Shown here: positions 17,866 through 24,603 of the stretch, in pieces
Layout of the letters: every line of letters starts with the position of its first letter
Position numbering within the stretch: position 1 is the first letter of the stretch
DNA from: Tropicimonas sp. IMCC34043
GTDB taxonomy: Bacteria; Pseudomonadota; Alphaproteobacteria; Rhodobacterales; Rhodobacteraceae
DNA: 64,000 nt
Direction: 5' to 3'
Assembly: GCF_003390845.1 (NCBI RefSeq)
Contig: NZ_QMEK01000003.1
Span: 310,001-374,000, forward strand
The notes under the pieces: generated by a model
The model's input: only the letters and a program-made list of their open reading frames with translations
Database searches by the model: none
What the model was told of the DNA's origin: nothing
Position numbers and translations under genes: made by a program

Positions 17866-18435
17866 ATGACCCGCATACTTGTTCTCGGATCGGCCATCGC
17901 ACTCGGACTTGCGGTCACCGGCGGCGCCGACGCCTTCGGCGGATCGCTGGCGCAATCCTCGCGGCCGAGCTTTGCCGAGCTTGATTCGAATGGCGACGGT
18001 CGCGTCACCGCGGCCGAGCTTGGCGTGCTGCCGGCGACCCGGATGAACGACCTGTTCGCCACGGCAGACCGCAACCGCGACGGCAGGATCACCCGCGAGG
18101 AGTTGTCCCGGATGACCGCGACGCGTGGCACGCTTGGGCCGCAACGGGCCGACCGGATGATGATGCGGCTCGATCTCGATCGCGACGGCACGATCACCTG
18201 GGCCGAGGCGAGGACCGCTGCGGGCCAGAACCGCAGTACTCCGCCGGGCGCACAGCTGATGGCGCGTGCCGACACCAACCGCGACGGGGTGATCACGGCC
18301 GCTGAATACGCTGCCGCAACCGCCCTGATGCAGCAGCGGCTGGGCGGTCAGGGCCAAGGCCAGCGCCAGAGCGGTCGCGGCCAGCAAGGGCAGGGTGGCC
18401 AGGGCCAGGGTGGCCGGGGTGGATGGCAGAACTGA
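17866..18435 (+). CDS. EF-hand domain protein, exported
   Basis: 189 residues with a signal peptide (MTRILVLGSAIALGLAVTGGADA) and four canonical calcium-binding loops: DSNGDGRVTAAE, DRNRDGRITREE, DLDRDGTITWAE and DTNRDGVITAAE. The C-terminus is a low-complexity Gly/Gln/Arg tail. It is periplasmic or lipid-free secreted. It lies 107 bp before an ECF sigma gene and may be part of, or controlled by, that signalling locus (inference). Confidence 0.9.
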   Translation: MTRILVLGSAIALGLAVTGGADAFGGSLAQSSRPSFAELDSNGDGRVTAAELGVLPATRMNDLFATADRNRDGRITREELSRMTATRGTLGPQRADRMMMRLDLDRDGTITWAEARTAAGQNRSTPPGAQLMARADTNRDGVITAAEYAAATALMQQRLGGQGQGQRQSGRGQQGQGGQGQGGRGGWQN

Positions 18436-18542
18436 GACAGGCCCGCGGACGTCCCCGCAGGCAGCGCGGCCAAGCCTGCGTCCATGGCGGCGAGACAATT
18501 GTACCCCGGACCTGAATGGCGTTAGTCGACAGGAAGATGGAG

Positions 18543-19136
18543 ATGCCCTTCGATACCCTGTCCGACACGACGGACGAGACGCTGCTGGCGTCCTACGCTG
18601 GCGGCGATCGGGCGGCGGCGCGGGTTCTGACATTGCGCCTGACGCCGCGGGTTCTGGGGCTTGCCACGCGGATGCTGGGCGACCGCAGCGAGGCCGAGGA
18701 TGTGGCCCAGGAGGCGATGCTGCGGCTGTGGCGGTTCGCGCCCCAGTGGCGCGAGGGCGAGGCGAAGGTTTCGACCTGGCTTTACCGAGTGGCGAGCAAC
18801 CTGTGCACCGACCGCTTGCGACGGCGGCGCAGCATCGGGCTTGACGATGCCTTCGGCGAAGGCAACGAGCCCGAAGACGAGCGCCCCGGGGTGCTGGGGC
18901 AGATGCAGGAGGCGGCGCGGTTCGAGGCGCTGCGCAGCGCGCTGGCAGATTTGCCGGAACGGCAGCAGCAGGCGGTGGTTCTGCGGCACTTCGAGGGGCT
19001 TTCGAACCCCGAGATCGCCGAAGTGATGGAGATCGGAGTGGAGGCGGTCGAAAGCCTGACCGCCCGCGGAAAACGAGCGCTGGCGGCCCGGCTGGTCGGG
19101 CGGCGCGCAGAACTGGGGTTGTGCGATGACGACTGA
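18543..19136 (+). CDS. RNA polymerase ECF sigma factor
   Basis: 197 residues with region 2 (RMLGDRSEAEDVAQEAMLRLW; VSTWLYRVASNLCTDRLRRR) and region 4 (LPERQQQAVVLRHFEGLSNPEIAEVM). ATG 18543 has AGGA 8 bp upstream; ATG 18516 would add nine residues but has a poor ribosome site. The stop overlaps the next ATG (19126), so sigma and membrane protein are translationally coupled, the usual sigma/anti-sigma arrangement. Confidence 0.92.
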   Translation: MPFDTLSDTTDETLLASYAGGDRAAARVLTLRLTPRVLGLATRMLGDRSEAEDVAQEAMLRLWRFAPQWREGEAKVSTWLYRVASNLCTDRLRRRRSIGLDDAFGEGNEPEDERPGVLGQMQEAARFEALRSALADLPERQQQAVVLRHFEGLSNPEIAEVMEIGVEAVESLTARGKRALAARLVGRRAELGLCDDD

Positions 19137-19530
19137 GTTCGACAGAAACCCGGAGGGGGATCTCGACCGCGAACTGGAAGCCTTCTTCCAGGCGATGCGG
19201 ACAGAGGTGGCAGAGCCGACGCCAGACCTGATGGCGCGGATTCTGGAAGATGCCTATGGTGAACAGGACCTGAGGGCGCCGGTCGAGGCGGCCCCCGTGG
19301 AGACGCAGGCGCGGGCCGGCCGGCGGTTTGGCCTTGGCGCGGTGCTTGCGGCGCTTGGCGGCTGGCCGTCGCTGGCGGGGCTTGCGTGTGCCACGATTGC
19401 CGGGCTGTGGATCGGGTTTCATCCTCCGGTGGCCGTCGACACGCTGTCGCTGGTGTTGTTCGACGGTAGCTATAACCTGACCATGGACAGTTCGTTGCCC
19501 GAGTACGGGTTCCTGCTGTCAGACGGATGA
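19126..19530 (+). CDS. Putative membrane anti-sigma factor
   Basis: 134 residues: an acidic, helical N-terminal half (DLDRELEAFFQAMRTEVAEP), one transmembrane segment near residues 84-101 (LAGLACATIAGLWIGFH) and a short periplasmic tail. I see no zinc-binding HxxxCxxC motif. Called an anti-sigma from its overlap with the ECF sigma gene and its topology, not from sequence homology. It is followed 13 bp later by a periplasmic sensor gene. Confidence 0.6.
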   Translation: MTTEFDRNPEGDLDRELEAFFQAMRTEVAEPTPDLMARILEDAYGEQDLRAPVEAAPVETQARAGRRFGLGAVLAALGGWPSLAGLACATIAGLWIGFHPPVAVDTLSLVLFDGSYNLTMDSSLPEYGFLLSDG

Positions 19531-19543
19531 AAGGGCGCGCGAC

Positions 19544-20131
19544 ATGACCGAGACCGGATCCGCCCCCGTCAGGGCGCCGCGCCGAGGCCGGTGGCTGCGG
19601 GTATTGCTGTTTGTGTCGCTGGCGCTGAACCTCGCTGTGGTCGGGATCGTCGGCGGTGCGATTCTGGGCCGTGCCGTCGATGGGCCGGGGCCGGTCCAGG
19701 TCTCGAAGGAACTGGGCCTCGGGCCATTCCTGACCGCGCTCGATCCGGCGCAGCGCGCAGCGCTTCGTTCGGCAAGCTGGGAACGGCGGAGCGAAATGCG
19801 GGCCGGTCGGGCCGCGTGGAAACAGGCTTTCGACGAGACGCTGCAAGTGCTTCGGACCGAACCCTTCGACGCCGCGCGGATGCAGGCGCTGGTCGACCTC
19901 CAGGCCGACCTTGCCGCCAATGCGCGGAAGGTCGGGCAGGAGGTGCTGATCGCGCAGCTGACGCAGATGTCGCCAGAGGAACGTCAGGCCTTTGCCGACC
20001 GGTTGGCGCGGGACCTGCATTTCGGTCGCGGCGGTCGGTCTGACGGCAAAGGGCCCCGCGATGGGTCTGGCTATCGCGCGGGCGGCGGCGCGGGCTATGG
20101 GCATCCCCCGCCGCCGCCGCCCGATCAATAA
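19544..20131 (+). CDS. Periplasmic heavy-metal sensor (Metal_resist/CnrX-like)
   Basis: 195 residues: basic cytoplasmic N-terminus, one membrane anchor (VLLFVSLALNLAVVGIVGGAILG), then an all-helical periplasmic domain with features of the Metal_resist/Spy-CpxP superfamily (LTALDPAQRAALR, QMSPEERQAFADRL). The C-terminus is Gly-rich and ends with a run of six prolines. The ECF sigma, membrane protein and periplasmic helical sensor trio resembles the cnrH/cnrY/cnrX logic for metal or envelope stress sensing. Confidence 0.75.
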   Translation: MTETGSAPVRAPRRGRWLRVLLFVSLALNLAVVGIVGGAILGRAVDGPGPVQVSKELGLGPFLTALDPAQRAALRSASWERRSEMRAGRAAWKQAFDETLQVLRTEPFDAARMQALVDLQADLAANARKVGQEVLIAQLTQMSPEERQAFADRLARDLHFGRGGRSDGKGPRDGSGYRAGGGAGYGHPPPPPPDQ

Positions 20132-20179: not shown

Positions 20180-21589
20180 TTATGCGGCGGCGCGGCTTTG
20201 TTCGCCGCGGGTGACAAGGTTGCGTCCCAGCGCCTTCGAGCGATACAGAGCCTGATCTGCGGCGGCGAGGATCCCGCCAGTGTCCGGCATCGCGTCCATC
20301 TGGTTCGCGTCGACGGCCACAAGGCCGATCGAGACCGTCTGATGCAGGTCGGCCACATCGCTGATGAGCCCGGGCGGGATCGAAATTGCGGTGGCGGCAA
20401 TTGCACCGCGCAGCCGTTCGGCGGCGTTTTCGGCCGCGGCGGGCGTGATGTTGGGCAGGATCGCCAGAAATTCCTCGCCGCCGATTCGGGCCACCAGATC
20501 GACGCTGCGCAGGTTCGCGGTCAGCAGCCGGGCCACCGATTGAAGCACCGTATCGCCAGCGGCGTGGCCATGGGTGTCATTGACCCGCTTGAAGTTATCG
20601 AGGTCGATCAGCAGCAGCGCATAGCCGCGGGCAGAGTCCTGCGCGCGTTCATGTACCCGGGCGAGGTGGGACATCGCATAGCGGCGGTTATAAAGCCCGG
20701 TCAGGGGATCTGTCACCGCCATCTGCAGCCCGTCGCGCACCTGCCGGCGCAGCCGGTCGGCCTGACGCTTGCGTTCAAGCTGGGTCCGCAGACGGATTGC
20801 CAGTTCACGGCCGTCGAGCGGCAGGGAAATGATGTCGGAGGCCCCGAGGTCGAGTGCCATGGTTGCCGAGCGGCGCGCCTCGGGCTCGACAACGACCAGG
20901 ATTGCGGCATGCCGGGTTTGCGGGCGCGAGCGCAGTTCGGACAGCAGCATCAGCCCGTCGCCCTCGTGTTCGAGATCGGCCGCGATCAGGAAGACGTCGG
21001 GGACCCGTTCGGCAGAGCTGGAAGCAAGCGCCTTGGAGGGCGAGCAGATCTCGATCCGGTCGCGAATGACTTCTGACAGCATGCGCTCCCAGGCGAGCGC
21101 GGTCGGCCTGTTGCCGGCCACCAGACAGACCCGTCCGGCCGCGACAAAGCAGCTTGGCGCATCGGAAAATCCGAGTGCCTCGCAGGTGCCGTCGCGCAGC
21201 GAGAGTTCGGCGTCGATCGAGCGGGCGCGCAGCAGGCTGCGGACCCGGGCGAGCAGTGCCATCTCGTCGACCGGTTTGGTCATGAAATCCTCGGCGCCGG
21301 CCTCGAGTGCGGCGAGCTTGGTGGCCATGTTGGCCGATGAGGTGACCATGACGACCGGGATCCCCGCGGTGCGAGGGTCGGCCTTGAGACGGCGGCAGGT
21401 CTCGAGCCCGTCGAGCTCGGGCATTGCAATATCGAGCAGAATCAGGTCTGGCGCCTGCTCCCGCGCGATGCGCAGCGCCTCAATTCCATTCCCCGCCTGC
21501 AGCACGTCATAGCAGGCGCCGGAAAGCTTCGCTTTGAGGATGATCCGATTCGTCGCGACGTCGTCCACGACCAATATCCGCCCGGGCAT
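20180..21589 (-). CDS. PleD-like response regulator diguanylate cyclase (REC-REC-GGDEF)
   Basis: 469 residues. The first receiver (1-120) has the acidic pair DD9-10, phospho-Asp53 and Lys105 (MTKPVD). The second receiver (about 152-270) is degenerate: the Asp-bearing strand reads DVFLIAADLE and the conserved Lys is replaced (ISLPLDG), as in PleD's adaptor domain. The GGDEF domain has GGEEF (370-374) and an inhibitory I-site RSVD (361-364), so it should make c-di-GMP with product feedback. No histidine kinase gene is adjacent. Confidence 0.93.
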   Translation of the reverse strand: MPGRILVVDDVATNRIILKAKLSGACYDVLQAGNGIEALRIAREQAPDLILLDIAMPELDGLETCRRLKADPRTAGIPVVMVTSSANMATKLAALEAGAEDFMTKPVDEMALLARVRSLLRARSIDAELSLRDGTCEALGFSDAPSCFVAAGRVCLVAGNRPTALAWERMLSEVIRDRIEICSPSKALASSSAERVPDVFLIAADLEHEGDGLMLLSELRSRPQTRHAAILVVVEPEARRSATMALDLGASDIISLPLDGRELAIRLRTQLERKRQADRLRRQVRDGLQMAVTDPLTGLYNRRYAMSHLARVHERAQDSARGYALLLIDLDNFKRVNDTHGHAAGDTVLQSVARLLTANLRSVDLVARIGGEEFLAILPNITPAAAENAAERLRGAIAATAISIPPGLISDVADLHQTVSIGLVAVDANQMDAMPDTGGILAAADQALYRSKALGRNLVTRGEQSRAAA

Positions 21590-21997: not shown

Positions 21998-22693
21998 ATG
22001 AAAACCTTGCGTGGCCTGCTGTTCGACAAGGACGGCACGCTTTTCGACTTTCAGGCGACCTGGGGGGGCTGGGCCGCGGACCTGCTGCTGGATCTGGCCG
22101 CGGACGACCCGGTTCAGGCCGATGCGCTTGCGGCGCGTCTTCGGCTGGACCGGCATGCGCGGCGCTATCATCCCGACAGCGTGGCGGTCGCCGGCACCAC
22201 CGAACACGTTGTGCGCGCGCTGCTGCCATTGCTGCCGGATCAGAGCTTTTCGGTTCTGTATGAGCGGATTGTTGCCGAATCTCAGAAAATCGAGGCGATC
22301 GAGGCTGTACCGCTCGTCCCGCTGCTCGACCGCCTGCGGGCGGAAGGATTCGTTCTGGGCGTGGCGACCAACGACGAGGCTGCCGCCGCCGCGGCGCAAC
22401 TGCGCGGCTGCGGCGTTTTGCAGTTGTTCGATTTCGTGGCGGGCGCCGACAGCGGCCATGGCGCCAAGCCCGGCCCCGGCCAGTGCCTGGCATTTGCCGA
22501 GGCGACCGGGATCGACCCTGCCCGGGTGGCAATGATCGGCGACAGCATCTTTGACCTGAGTGCCGGCGCCGCCGCCGGTATGGTGCCGGTCGGGGTACTG
22601 ACCGGCCCCGCGACCGAGGCGGAACTCGCACCTTTTGCGGCGGCGATCCTGCCTGACATCGGCCATTTGCCGGGCTGGTTGGGGCTCGGCTGA
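21998..22693 (+). CDS. HAD family hydrolase (phosphoglycolate-phosphatase-like)
   Basis: 231 residues. Motif I is LLFDKDGTLFD, motif II lies near LGVATND, motif III Lys in GHGAKPGPG, and motif IV is MIGDSIFDLSAG. The helical cap follows motif I, as in Gph-type phosphatases. A cytoplasmic small-molecule phosphatase; the substrate cannot be deduced. Confidence 0.88.
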   Translation: MKTLRGLLFDKDGTLFDFQATWGGWAADLLLDLAADDPVQADALAARLRLDRHARRYHPDSVAVAGTTEHVVRALLPLLPDQSFSVLYERIVAESQKIEAIEAVPLVPLLDRLRAEGFVLGVATNDEAAAAAAQLRGCGVLQLFDFVAGADSGHGAKPGPGQCLAFAEATGIDPARVAMIGDSIFDLSAGAAAGMVPVGVLTGPATEAELAPFAAAILPDIGHLPGWLGLG

Positions 22694-22942: not shown

Positions 22943-23551
22943 ATGCATGGGCTCGTGAATCGATCTATCCAGTGCTTTGTGCGCGATACCTACGGTACCG
23001 GGTGCTGGAACCGCGTGGCCGCCGTGCTGGATCTGGGGCCGGACGGCTTCGAGACGATGTTCAGCTATGACGATGCGGTGACCCAGCGCCTGATGGACGA
23101 GGTCGTGCGCGTGCTCGACAAGCCGCACGACATGGTGCTGGAGGATGTCGGGACCTATCTGGTCAGCCATCCCAATACGGAATCGATCCGCCGCCTGTTG
23201 CGCTTCGGCGGCGAGACATTCGCCGATTTCCTCCACTCGCTGGAGGATTTGCCGGACCGTGCCCGGCTTGCGGTCCCCGAACTGCGTCTACCCTGCCTCG
23301 ATCTCGTCGAAGAATCCGAGGGGCGGTTCGCGCTCCATGTCGAGAATCTGCATCCGGGATTTGCCTTTGTCCTCGTCGGGGTGCTGCGGGCGATGGCGGA
23401 CGATTACGGCGCGCTGGCGCTGCTCGATCAGCGAATGGCGCCGGACGGCCGCTACGTGGTCGACATCAGCCTGCTCGACAGCGCCTTTGCCGAAGGCCGA
23501 CGATTCACGCTTGCCCGTCCCGTCGGCCCGGCCAAGGAGGCCGCGGAATGA
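22943..23551 (+). CDS. H-NOX (heme NO-binding) fold protein lacking the haem ligands
   Basis: 202 residues starting MHGLVNRSIQCFVRDTYG, the usual H-NOX N-terminus; the rest aligns by motif with bacterial H-NOX. The helix that normally carries the haem-ligating His (LDxLHxR pattern) reads SLEDLPDRARL, with Pro104 in place of His. The YxSxR porphyrin-propionate motif reads V133-E-N-L-H137. It may therefore not bind haem in the canonical way, or may use another ligand such as His98. The TGA overlaps the ATG of the HNOBA-GGDEF gene, so the products are expected to act together, as H-NOX/cyclase pairs do in NO signalling. Confidence 0.88.
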   Translation: MHGLVNRSIQCFVRDTYGTGCWNRVAAVLDLGPDGFETMFSYDDAVTQRLMDEVVRVLDKPHDMVLEDVGTYLVSHPNTESIRRLLRFGGETFADFLHSLEDLPDRARLAVPELRLPCLDLVEESEGRFALHVENLHPGFAFVLVGVLRAMADDYGALALLDQRMAPDGRYVVDISLLDSAFAEGRRFTLARPVGPAKEAAE

Positions 23552-24603
23552 GCGGGCAGGGCGGCACCGAAGCGGTCTGCAGCAGCACCTGTTGCGGCGG
23601 GGTTCCGGGGTTTGGTGTCGCGGCGCTGAACCGGCTGATGCCGATGCATCTGACGGTCGCGGCGAATGGCCGGATCCTCCGGGTCGGTCCGACCCTGCAG
23701 AAGCTGCGGCTGGGCTCGCGGCTTGAGGGGATGCAGCTGTTCGACCTGTTCGAGTTGCGCCGTCCCAAGGGGCTCTGTCACGTCCGCGATCTGATCGAGA
23801 CCGACAGCGGGCAAGTGTCGCTGGCGTTCCGCAACGGTGTCCGCGGCAACTTCAAGGGCGTGGCGGCGGCACTGCCCTGCGGGCACGGTGTGCTGATCAA
23901 CCTGTCGTTCGGGATTTCGGTTGTCGATGCGGTGCAGGCCTATGATCTGACGCTGGGCGATTTCGCCGGCACCGACCTGGCGGTCGAGATGCTGTATCTG
24001 GTCGAGGCGAAATCGGCGGCGCTGCAGGAATCGAAGAAGCTGAACCTGCGGTTGCAGGGCGCCAAGGTCGCCGCCGAGGAGCAAGCCTTCACCGATACCT
24101 TGACCGGGCTCAAGAACCTTCGGGCGATGGACCACGTTCTGGGACGGTTGATCGCCGACGGCACCCCCTTCGGGGTGATGCATGTCGACCTCGATTTTTT
24201 CAAGGAGGTCAACGATACCTATGGCCATGCCGCGGGCGATCTGGTCTTGCAGAACGTCGCCCGGGTGCTGGTGTCCGAGACCCGCGCAGTCGATACCGTG
24301 GCTCGGGTCGGCGGCGACGAATTCGTGCTGATCATCCGCGATCAGATCGACTTGCAGAAGCTCGGCAATATCGCGATGCGGATCATCGCCCGGCTGGAGG
24401 AGCCGGTCCCCTACAACGGGGTCTATTGCCGGATCTCGGGCAGCATCGGCCTGACCACCAGCATCGCCCGCGGCCGTTCCGGGCAGGCCCGCATTCTGAA
24501 GGATGCCGACCTCGCGCTCTATGCCTCCAAGGACGCCGGGCGCGGACGCTATACCGTGTTCACGCCCGATCTGGAACGCGCGCGACGCTCTCCTGACATC
24601 TGA
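23548..24603 (+). CDS. Diguanylate cyclase with HNOBA-type sensor domain
   Basis: 351 residues. The N-terminus has a Cys cluster (C11, C15, C16 in AVCSSTCCGG) followed by an HNOBA/PAS-like domain (ALNRLMPMHL, RILRVGPTLQKL, LFDLFELRRP) known from proteins that partner H-NOX. A short helical linker (about 152-180) leads to a GGDEF domain with intact GGDEF (255-259) and an I-site RAVD (246-249). It should synthesise c-di-GMP under control of the H-NOX-like partner encoded in the same operon with ATGA overlap. Confidence 0.92.
   Translation: MSGQGGTEAVCSSTCCGGVPGFGVAALNRLMPMHLTVAANGRILRVGPTLQKLRLGSRLEGMQLFDLFELRRPKGLCHVRDLIETDSGQVSLAFRNGVRGNFKGVAAALPCGHGVLINLSFGISVVDAVQAYDLTLGDFAGTDLAVEMLYLVEAKSAALQESKKLNLRLQGAKVAAEEQAFTDTLTGLKNLRAMDHVLGRLIADGTPFGVMHVDLDFFKEVNDTYGHAAGDLVLQNVARVLVSETRAVDTVARVGGDEFVLIIRDQIDLQKLGNIAMRIIARLEEPVPYNGVYCRISGSIGLTTSIARGRSGQARILKDADLALYASKDAGRGRYTVFTPDLERARRSPDI

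Follow-up and report, generated by a model that had tools for sequence, protein, structure and literature searches.

Introduction

In canonical H-NOX proteins, the activating step is the displacement of the proximal His by NO, and the H-NOX of V. cholerae can also respond in a haem-free form through Cys, as described in the available parts of two sources (PMC7108781, PMC12329717). A large H-NOX 'Group 5' has been delineated in which less than 10% of the members carry the His, most have Pro instead, and Cys is not conserved (PMC8738867). The accessible portion of that 2022 review, whose network edges were drawn at E < 1e-47, lists GGDEF and HAD among the neighbouring genes and asks how such proteins sense anything, a matter that it says 'begs the question'. 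Earlier, the H-NOX proteins of P. denitrificans and R. sphaeroides had been reported to lack the axial His (PMC5588039, 2017). According to the available text of that paper, the hnoX mutant of P. denitrificans is biofilm-deficient and the dgcAB one overproduces biofilm; the authors suggest that DgcA is inhibited by H-NOX; biofilm formation is still stimulated by NirS-derived NO without hnoX, and the authors infer that NO acts via H-NOX too. A hnox-deletion phenotype in P. denitrificans is likewise mentioned in the accessible part of PMC12582929, which contains no measurement of haem. In D. shibae, where a sole H-NOX gene was counted, the NO-bound protein is described as inhibiting Dgc1 (PMC8846402, PMC7232146, PMC6473078, in the portions available), and it is reported as NO-responsive and tabulated as a haem sensor (PMC8846402, PMC7232146). 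Excerpts of two further papers state that, in P. inhibens and D. shibae, mutants of the CtrA system show decreased hnox and dgc (PMC11974857) and raise a constitutive regulator role as a possibility for a Caulobacter H-NOX (PMC10746521).

Here we analyzed an H-NOX gene in a 64,000-nucleotide stretch of the genome of Tropicimonas sp. IMCC34043 (the window). The loss of the His in this group is already published, and by its residues and neighbours the window gene is a member of the described group. We add that the YxSxR clamp is gone even where the His survives, that a single loss of the His is rejected on a quick tree, that His98 fails as a substitute shared by the group, and that the group carries a ten-residue signature; in the parts of the literature that we searched, mostly non-subscription papers, we found no mention of the clamp loss, of repeated His loss or of the signature. 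The window protein is most likely a haem-independent regulatory subunit of the neighbouring cyclase that would dock on its N-terminal part and hold its activity down, a reading to which we give a probability of roughly 0.53.

Results

The window gene encodes an H-NOX protein without the canonical haem sites

The gene and the positions of its haem sites are as follows (window positions).

22943..23551, forward strand: H-NOX gene of the Group-5 type (HNOB), an intact ORF of 202 aa with an ATG start at 22943
23252..23254, forward strand: Pro104 codon, in place of the proximal haem His (sequence; alignment to Nostoc H-NOX)
23339..23353, forward strand: V-E-N-L-H (residues 133-137), in place of YxSxR (sequence; alignment to Nostoc H-NOX)
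23234..23236, forward strand: codon of His98, proposed earlier as an alternative ligand and not conserved (column counts, conservation ranks)

A previous reading made from the sequence only had recognized this ORF as an H-NOX protein by its length and N-terminus, and both the profile search and the modelled fold agree. The Pfam HNOB profile (PF07700) matches residues 2-155 with an E-value of 2.9e-23 (83 bits, against a cut-off of 25.5), while an NCBIfam search of the protein gave zero matches at E 0.01. By sequence, the nearest solved structure is the H-NOX of Nostoc Alr2278 (4iah, E 2.9e-17). In the pairwise alignment with it, Pro104 falls on His105, and Val133, Asn135 and His137 fall on Tyr134, Ser136 and Arg138, exactly the substitutions of the proximal His and of the clamp that had been proposed. 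The alignment is free of gaps around both haem sites, so the proximal His is replaced and not displaced; a displaced but still present His, the outcome that the earlier reading had named as contrary to its own claim, is thereby ruled out. Of the features of a canonical haem H-NOX, the window protein consequently lacks the proximal His and YxSxR and retains the Pro: P117 aligns with Nostoc Pro118, which we take to be the conserved haem-contacting Pro of H-NOX.

An AlphaFold2 model of the protein, built from 83 aligned relatives, reached a mean pLDDT of 91.2, and in it a single helix (93-110) passes through Pro104. H-NOX structures ranked at the top when the model was searched with Foldseek and VIA-align. 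With the latter, 178 residues superimposed with an rmsd of 2.3 both on the Nostoc structure 2o09 (Z 20.6) and on the NO-active human sGC beta chain 8hbh (Z 21.5); these Z values tie within 1, and the model shows no preference for the NO-active state. The predicted fold is that of an H-NOX, and the model is silent on haem.

The loss of the clamp extends to the whole group

An HNOB match is present in 319 of 390 Rhodobacterales genomes and a match to the window protein in 317, although at least five of the latter (G003, G028, G325, G331 and G349) match weakly, via a His-bearing near-canonical protein. We compared 189 H-NOX sequences drawn from 211 loci. Excluded from the counts were both loci of the window itself, the split genes L161 and L166, rows whose first 180 residues duplicate those of a different row, and loci in which the H-NOX gave no profile match at E 1e-4 (including L027-L031, L190, L192, L195, L196 and L199). 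Sorting by N-terminus and motifs gave 161 window-type rows (window included), 9 near-canonical and 19 far-canonical ones; the sample is non-random, as closeness to the window defined the 80 named loci and distance was the reason for choosing others, and all fractions given here are descriptive. The near-canonical genes (L002-L008, L023 and L024) lie in the same order of bacteria and have the His, YxSxR and the Trp, and they offer a natural haem-bearing control. Far-canonical H-NOX genes with His and YxSxR are also present in the window's genus (L014 in genome G304, L018 in G365); the 4.6-Mb window genome has one HNOB match, the window protein itself. A search of 385 genomes of the class, in many of which eight first-look candidates were scored, returned at least 12 matches. 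Five, counting the window genome, belong to the window's family; the seven from other families each have His and YxSxR. Window-type H-NOX was confined to Rhodobacterales in this class sample.

At position 104 the window-type rows have Pro in 116 cases and His in 16, followed by Glu (10), Gln (7), Ala (5), Ser (2), Asn (2) and one each of Arg, Gly and Tyr. The full YxSxR motif was found in none of the 161, and in all near-canonical (9/9) and far-canonical (19/19) rows. A Trp at position 73 is shared by Nostoc and the nine near-canonical proteins and is missing from all 161 window-type rows; it is also missing from all 19 far-canonical ones, so its loss alone is weak evidence. P117 and G146 are kept in 161/161 and G70 in 160/161 window-type rows.

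We then ranked the 191 alignment positions by weighted entropy in the 145 rows without His104. P117 ranks 3 and residue 104 ranks 73 (Pro 0.70 by weight), and the clamp positions 133, 135 and 137 rank 122, 166 and 190. The conservation in orthologues that the earlier reading had named as support for its claim is found for Pro104, which is also present in P. denitrificans, and not for the Val/Asn/His triplet, two of whose three positions are among the most variable of the alignment.

To gauge constraint we calculated dN/dS for 31 non-overlapping pairs at 75-97% identity, and removed five of them, as dS was undefined in two and exceeded 3 in three. The median of the remaining 26, two of them from His-bearing members, was 0.105 and the maximum 0.245. 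At the level of codon comparison, such low values show that these genes are maintained under purifying selection. Together with the absence of the His in 145 of 161 rows and of the clamp in all of them, this rejects a sequencing error, as the earlier reading had judged. It also makes it highly improbable that the window gene is a decaying relic. That idea could draw on L161 and L166, whose H-NOX gene is spread over two frames, either as a broken gene or through an assembly error, next to a cyclase that matches over most of its length; against it stand the dN/dS values, the fact that 317 of 390 genomes have a match (in a few cases to the near-canonical type), and a partner that has kept its GGDEF and RxxD motifs.

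Candidate replacement ligands

Among the 145 rows lacking His104, the alignment contains no invariant His or Cys, and no Cys column reaches 60%. The best kept His columns are H2 (126 rows) and H76 (101). His98, which the sequence-only reading had singled out as the only nearby alternative ligand, occurs in 87 rows and ranks 123 of 191, and we rejected it as a substitute ligand shared by the group. H2 is also found in 10 of the 16 His-bearing members, Y42 in 129 and Y155 in 142 of the 145 non-His rows; judged by conservation, H2, Y42 and Y155 are candidate ligands.

These residues bear on the possibility that haem still sits in the old pocket although the proximal His is gone. Hydrophobic contacts and the conserved Pro would then keep it in place, its axial ligand would be weak, variable or exogenous, and NO would still be sensed. 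As His is dispensable for a five-coordinate Fe(II)-NO haem, the NO signal to the cyclase would persist. The H-NOX fold, the invariance of P117 and the three candidate ligands all speak for it, as do the reported NO response of the D. shibae H-NOX (PMC8846402, PMC7232146) and the stimulation of biofilm by NO in P. denitrificans (PMC5588039), each as given in the available text. However, the full clamp is gone from every window-type row, and so, for what it is worth, is the Trp; residue 104 is any of ten residues; and, in the accessible part of the same paper, P. denitrificans lacking hnoX still responds to NO (PMC5588039). Weighing both sides, we consider haem binding without the His the second most likely explanation, well short of even odds.

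In some lineages the clamp went first, and a quick tree rejects a single loss of the His

The 16 His-bearing window-type rows (for example L142, L143, L145 and L151) are already without the full clamp, which means that in those lineages the clamp was lost before the His. On a tree of 79 rows, the His/non-His trait needs 10 changes. A single loss, with all 54 non-His rows of the 79 as one clade, was rejected by an AU test on a quick tree (p 0.000274), a value that should be approached cautiously as the tree had been seen beforehand, column 104 was left in, 31 of the 76 inner branches are weak and two rows are very long. In this test, gain of His is indistinguishable from loss, and both repeated loss and some regain of the His are possible. 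For a link between retention of His104 and of Tyr133, the supported branches offer only three independent pairs.

A ten-residue signature marks the group

Ten residues of the window protein, E67, D68, R83, R84, R87, R106, R149, D153, D154 and Y155, rank between 2 and 31 of 191 in conservation. They are encoded at the following sites (alignment counts, conservation ranks).

23141..23146, forward strand: E67-D68
23189..23203, forward strand: R83 to R87 (R83, R84 and R87)
23258..23260, forward strand: R106
23387..23407, forward strand: R149 to Y155 (R149, D153, D154 and Y155)

Individually, they occur in at least 150 and up to all 161 of the window-type rows. All ten occur together in 130 rows, nine in 24, eight in 4, and four to six in the remaining 3 (L157, L167 and L208), whereas no near-canonical or far-canonical row (9 and 19, respectively) has more than two. 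Even among the 40 rows less than 42% identical to the window protein, 26 have the complete set. The 16 His-bearing members have eight to ten of the residues, so the signature marks the group and does not track the loss of the His. From the helix boundaries of the model, E67 and D68 could face R83, R84 and R87 across a helix hairpin.

Such near-invariance, retained in those distant rows, would fit a pocket taken over by another small ligand, or polar residues that bind a charged metabolite, so that a new chemical is sensed. The same pattern fits intradomain salt bridges or a docking surface for the cyclase, and no ligand is known; we regard a new ligand as improbable. A broader scenario, which we advance tentatively and at less than even odds, is that the H-NOX of one order shed its haem stepwise, losing the clamp early and groupwide and the His afterwards, on more than one occasion. 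Gas sensing would have given way to a haem-free input or a partner-control surface built on these ten new, nearly invariant and mostly charged residues.

The partner is a diguanylate cyclase

The downstream gene has the following features.

23548..24603, forward strand: partner diguanylate cyclase of 351 residues, with N-terminal HNOBA, long helix and GGDEF (Pfam, model)
23620..23802, forward strand: HNOBA match, cyclase residues 25-85 (Pfam, 25.8 bits, cut-off 23.4)
24283..24324, forward strand: RxxD (246-249) and GGDEF (255-259) motifs of the cyclase (sequence; invariant in the cyclase alignment)

Its ATG at 23548 overlaps the end of the H-NOX gene by 4 bp, and with the HNOBA and GGDEF matches this upholds the earlier description of an overlapping gene for an HNOBA cyclase. 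We presume the RxxD motif to be the inhibitory site. By a scripted rule, a same-strand cyclase adjoins the H-NOX gene in 157 of 160 loci; the three that failed (L175, L187 and L189) did so as the first H-NOX match fragment was used, and there the cyclase match begins within 40 bp of the ORF ends. The 161 distinct partner ORFs (from 159 loci) all have GG[DE]EF and RxxD. A related cyclase is found in 6 of the 9 near-canonical loci.

A model of the window cyclase (pLDDT 90.0, pTM 0.58) comprises an N-terminal domain of mixed alpha/beta type, a helix (144-182) and the GGDEF domain. Its Foldseek matches include the PAS-GGDEF-EAL protein PA0861, with sGC beta chains at a TM of 0.31-0.33 only; VIA-align confirmed the GGDEF part and hardly tested the N-terminal remainder. 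A sequence search of the PDB with the N-terminal part gave 12 matches, every one to a single phosphatase and at E 0.38 or worse, and we took them as chance.

Upstream of the pair, a HAD gene (21998-22693) lies near the H-NOX gene, and with the GGDEF gene at 23548 both neighbour types named in the review text are present. In a Phaeobacter locus on a 120-kb plasmid (L213), H-NOX and cyclase stand behind HAD and trimethylamine methyltransferase genes; the window has the HAD gene, and the methyltransferase gene is absent between it and H-NOX. A PleD-like REC-GGDEF gene with two receiver matches lies on the reverse strand (20180-21589), 1.35 kb from the H-NOX gene, and of the four GGDEF matches in the whole genome two are inside the window. 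The region 17866-20128 encodes an EF-hand protein, an ECF sigma factor, a short ORF and a protein of the heavy-metal-resistance fold (PF13801), possibly a calcium/metal ECF system.

Discussion

Taken together, the absence of the His in 145 and of the clamp in all 161 rows, the signature, the purifying selection and the cyclase next door favour a haem-independent regulator, as do the hnoX/DgcA biofilm data available for the Pro-bearing P. denitrificans system (PMC5588039). We propose that an H-NOX without proximal His or clamp would dock on the N-terminal part of the HNOBA-GGDEF cyclase and, once docked, would hold down its activity, which would make it a regulator and probably an inhibitor. 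As canonical activation consists in the release of the His from the iron, a protein lacking that bond could be constitutively active and sit permanently in the partner-inhibiting conformation; or the newly conserved polar residues might let another input switch it.

Several observations count against haem independence. If the D. shibae H-NOX is His-less, NO sensing survives the loss of the His, and the inference in PMC5588039 that NO acts partly via H-NOX also counts here. P117, G146 and G70 are kept, so, judging from the alignment, the pocket and the hinge may persist, and H2, Y42 and Y155 might supply another ligand. That 16 of the 161 rows retain the His would be odd if haem were wholly irrelevant to the group. 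Moreover, the predicted fold is indistinguishable from that of haem-bound H-NOX, with 2o09 and 8hbh tied. In the portions of the literature searched, we found no case of direct cyclase inhibition by a known His-less H-NOX.

Public records label such genes 'heme NO-binding'. If haem is not bound, most of them are misnamed, and the control of c-di-GMP by these genes has an unknown input. The ten-residue signature and the His-bearing members are direct targets for testing haem independence.

Finally, we compared the window protein with the known systems. Relative to Group 5, as characterized in the available text of PMC8738867, it is alike in the Pro in place of the His, in the lack of a conserved Cys and in the GGDEF and HAD neighbours, and we saw no difference. 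The P. denitrificans H-NOX/DgcA pair (Pden_3719/Pden_3720) shares the Pro at the His position (strain HAMBI_2443) and an H-NOX gene overlapping the GGDEF gene; across query residues 1-191, this H-NOX and the window protein share 43.5% identity, with an E-value of 3e-39 that comes from another database than that of the published network. The order of the parts is like that of sGC, but here H-NOX is on a separate chain, which is a likeness and not membership. In its haem-free, redox-responsive form, the V. cholerae H-NOX resembles the proposed regulator in reaching a signalling state without haem, and differs, in the portion of PMC7108781 available, in its Cys-ligated zinc site, which the window group lacks, and in its conserved proximal His. 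Nostoc Alr2278 and the near-canonical Rhodobacterales proteins share with the window type the fold and the invariant Pro and Gly, but they keep the His, YxSxR and the Trp at position 73, and the window protein is without all three.
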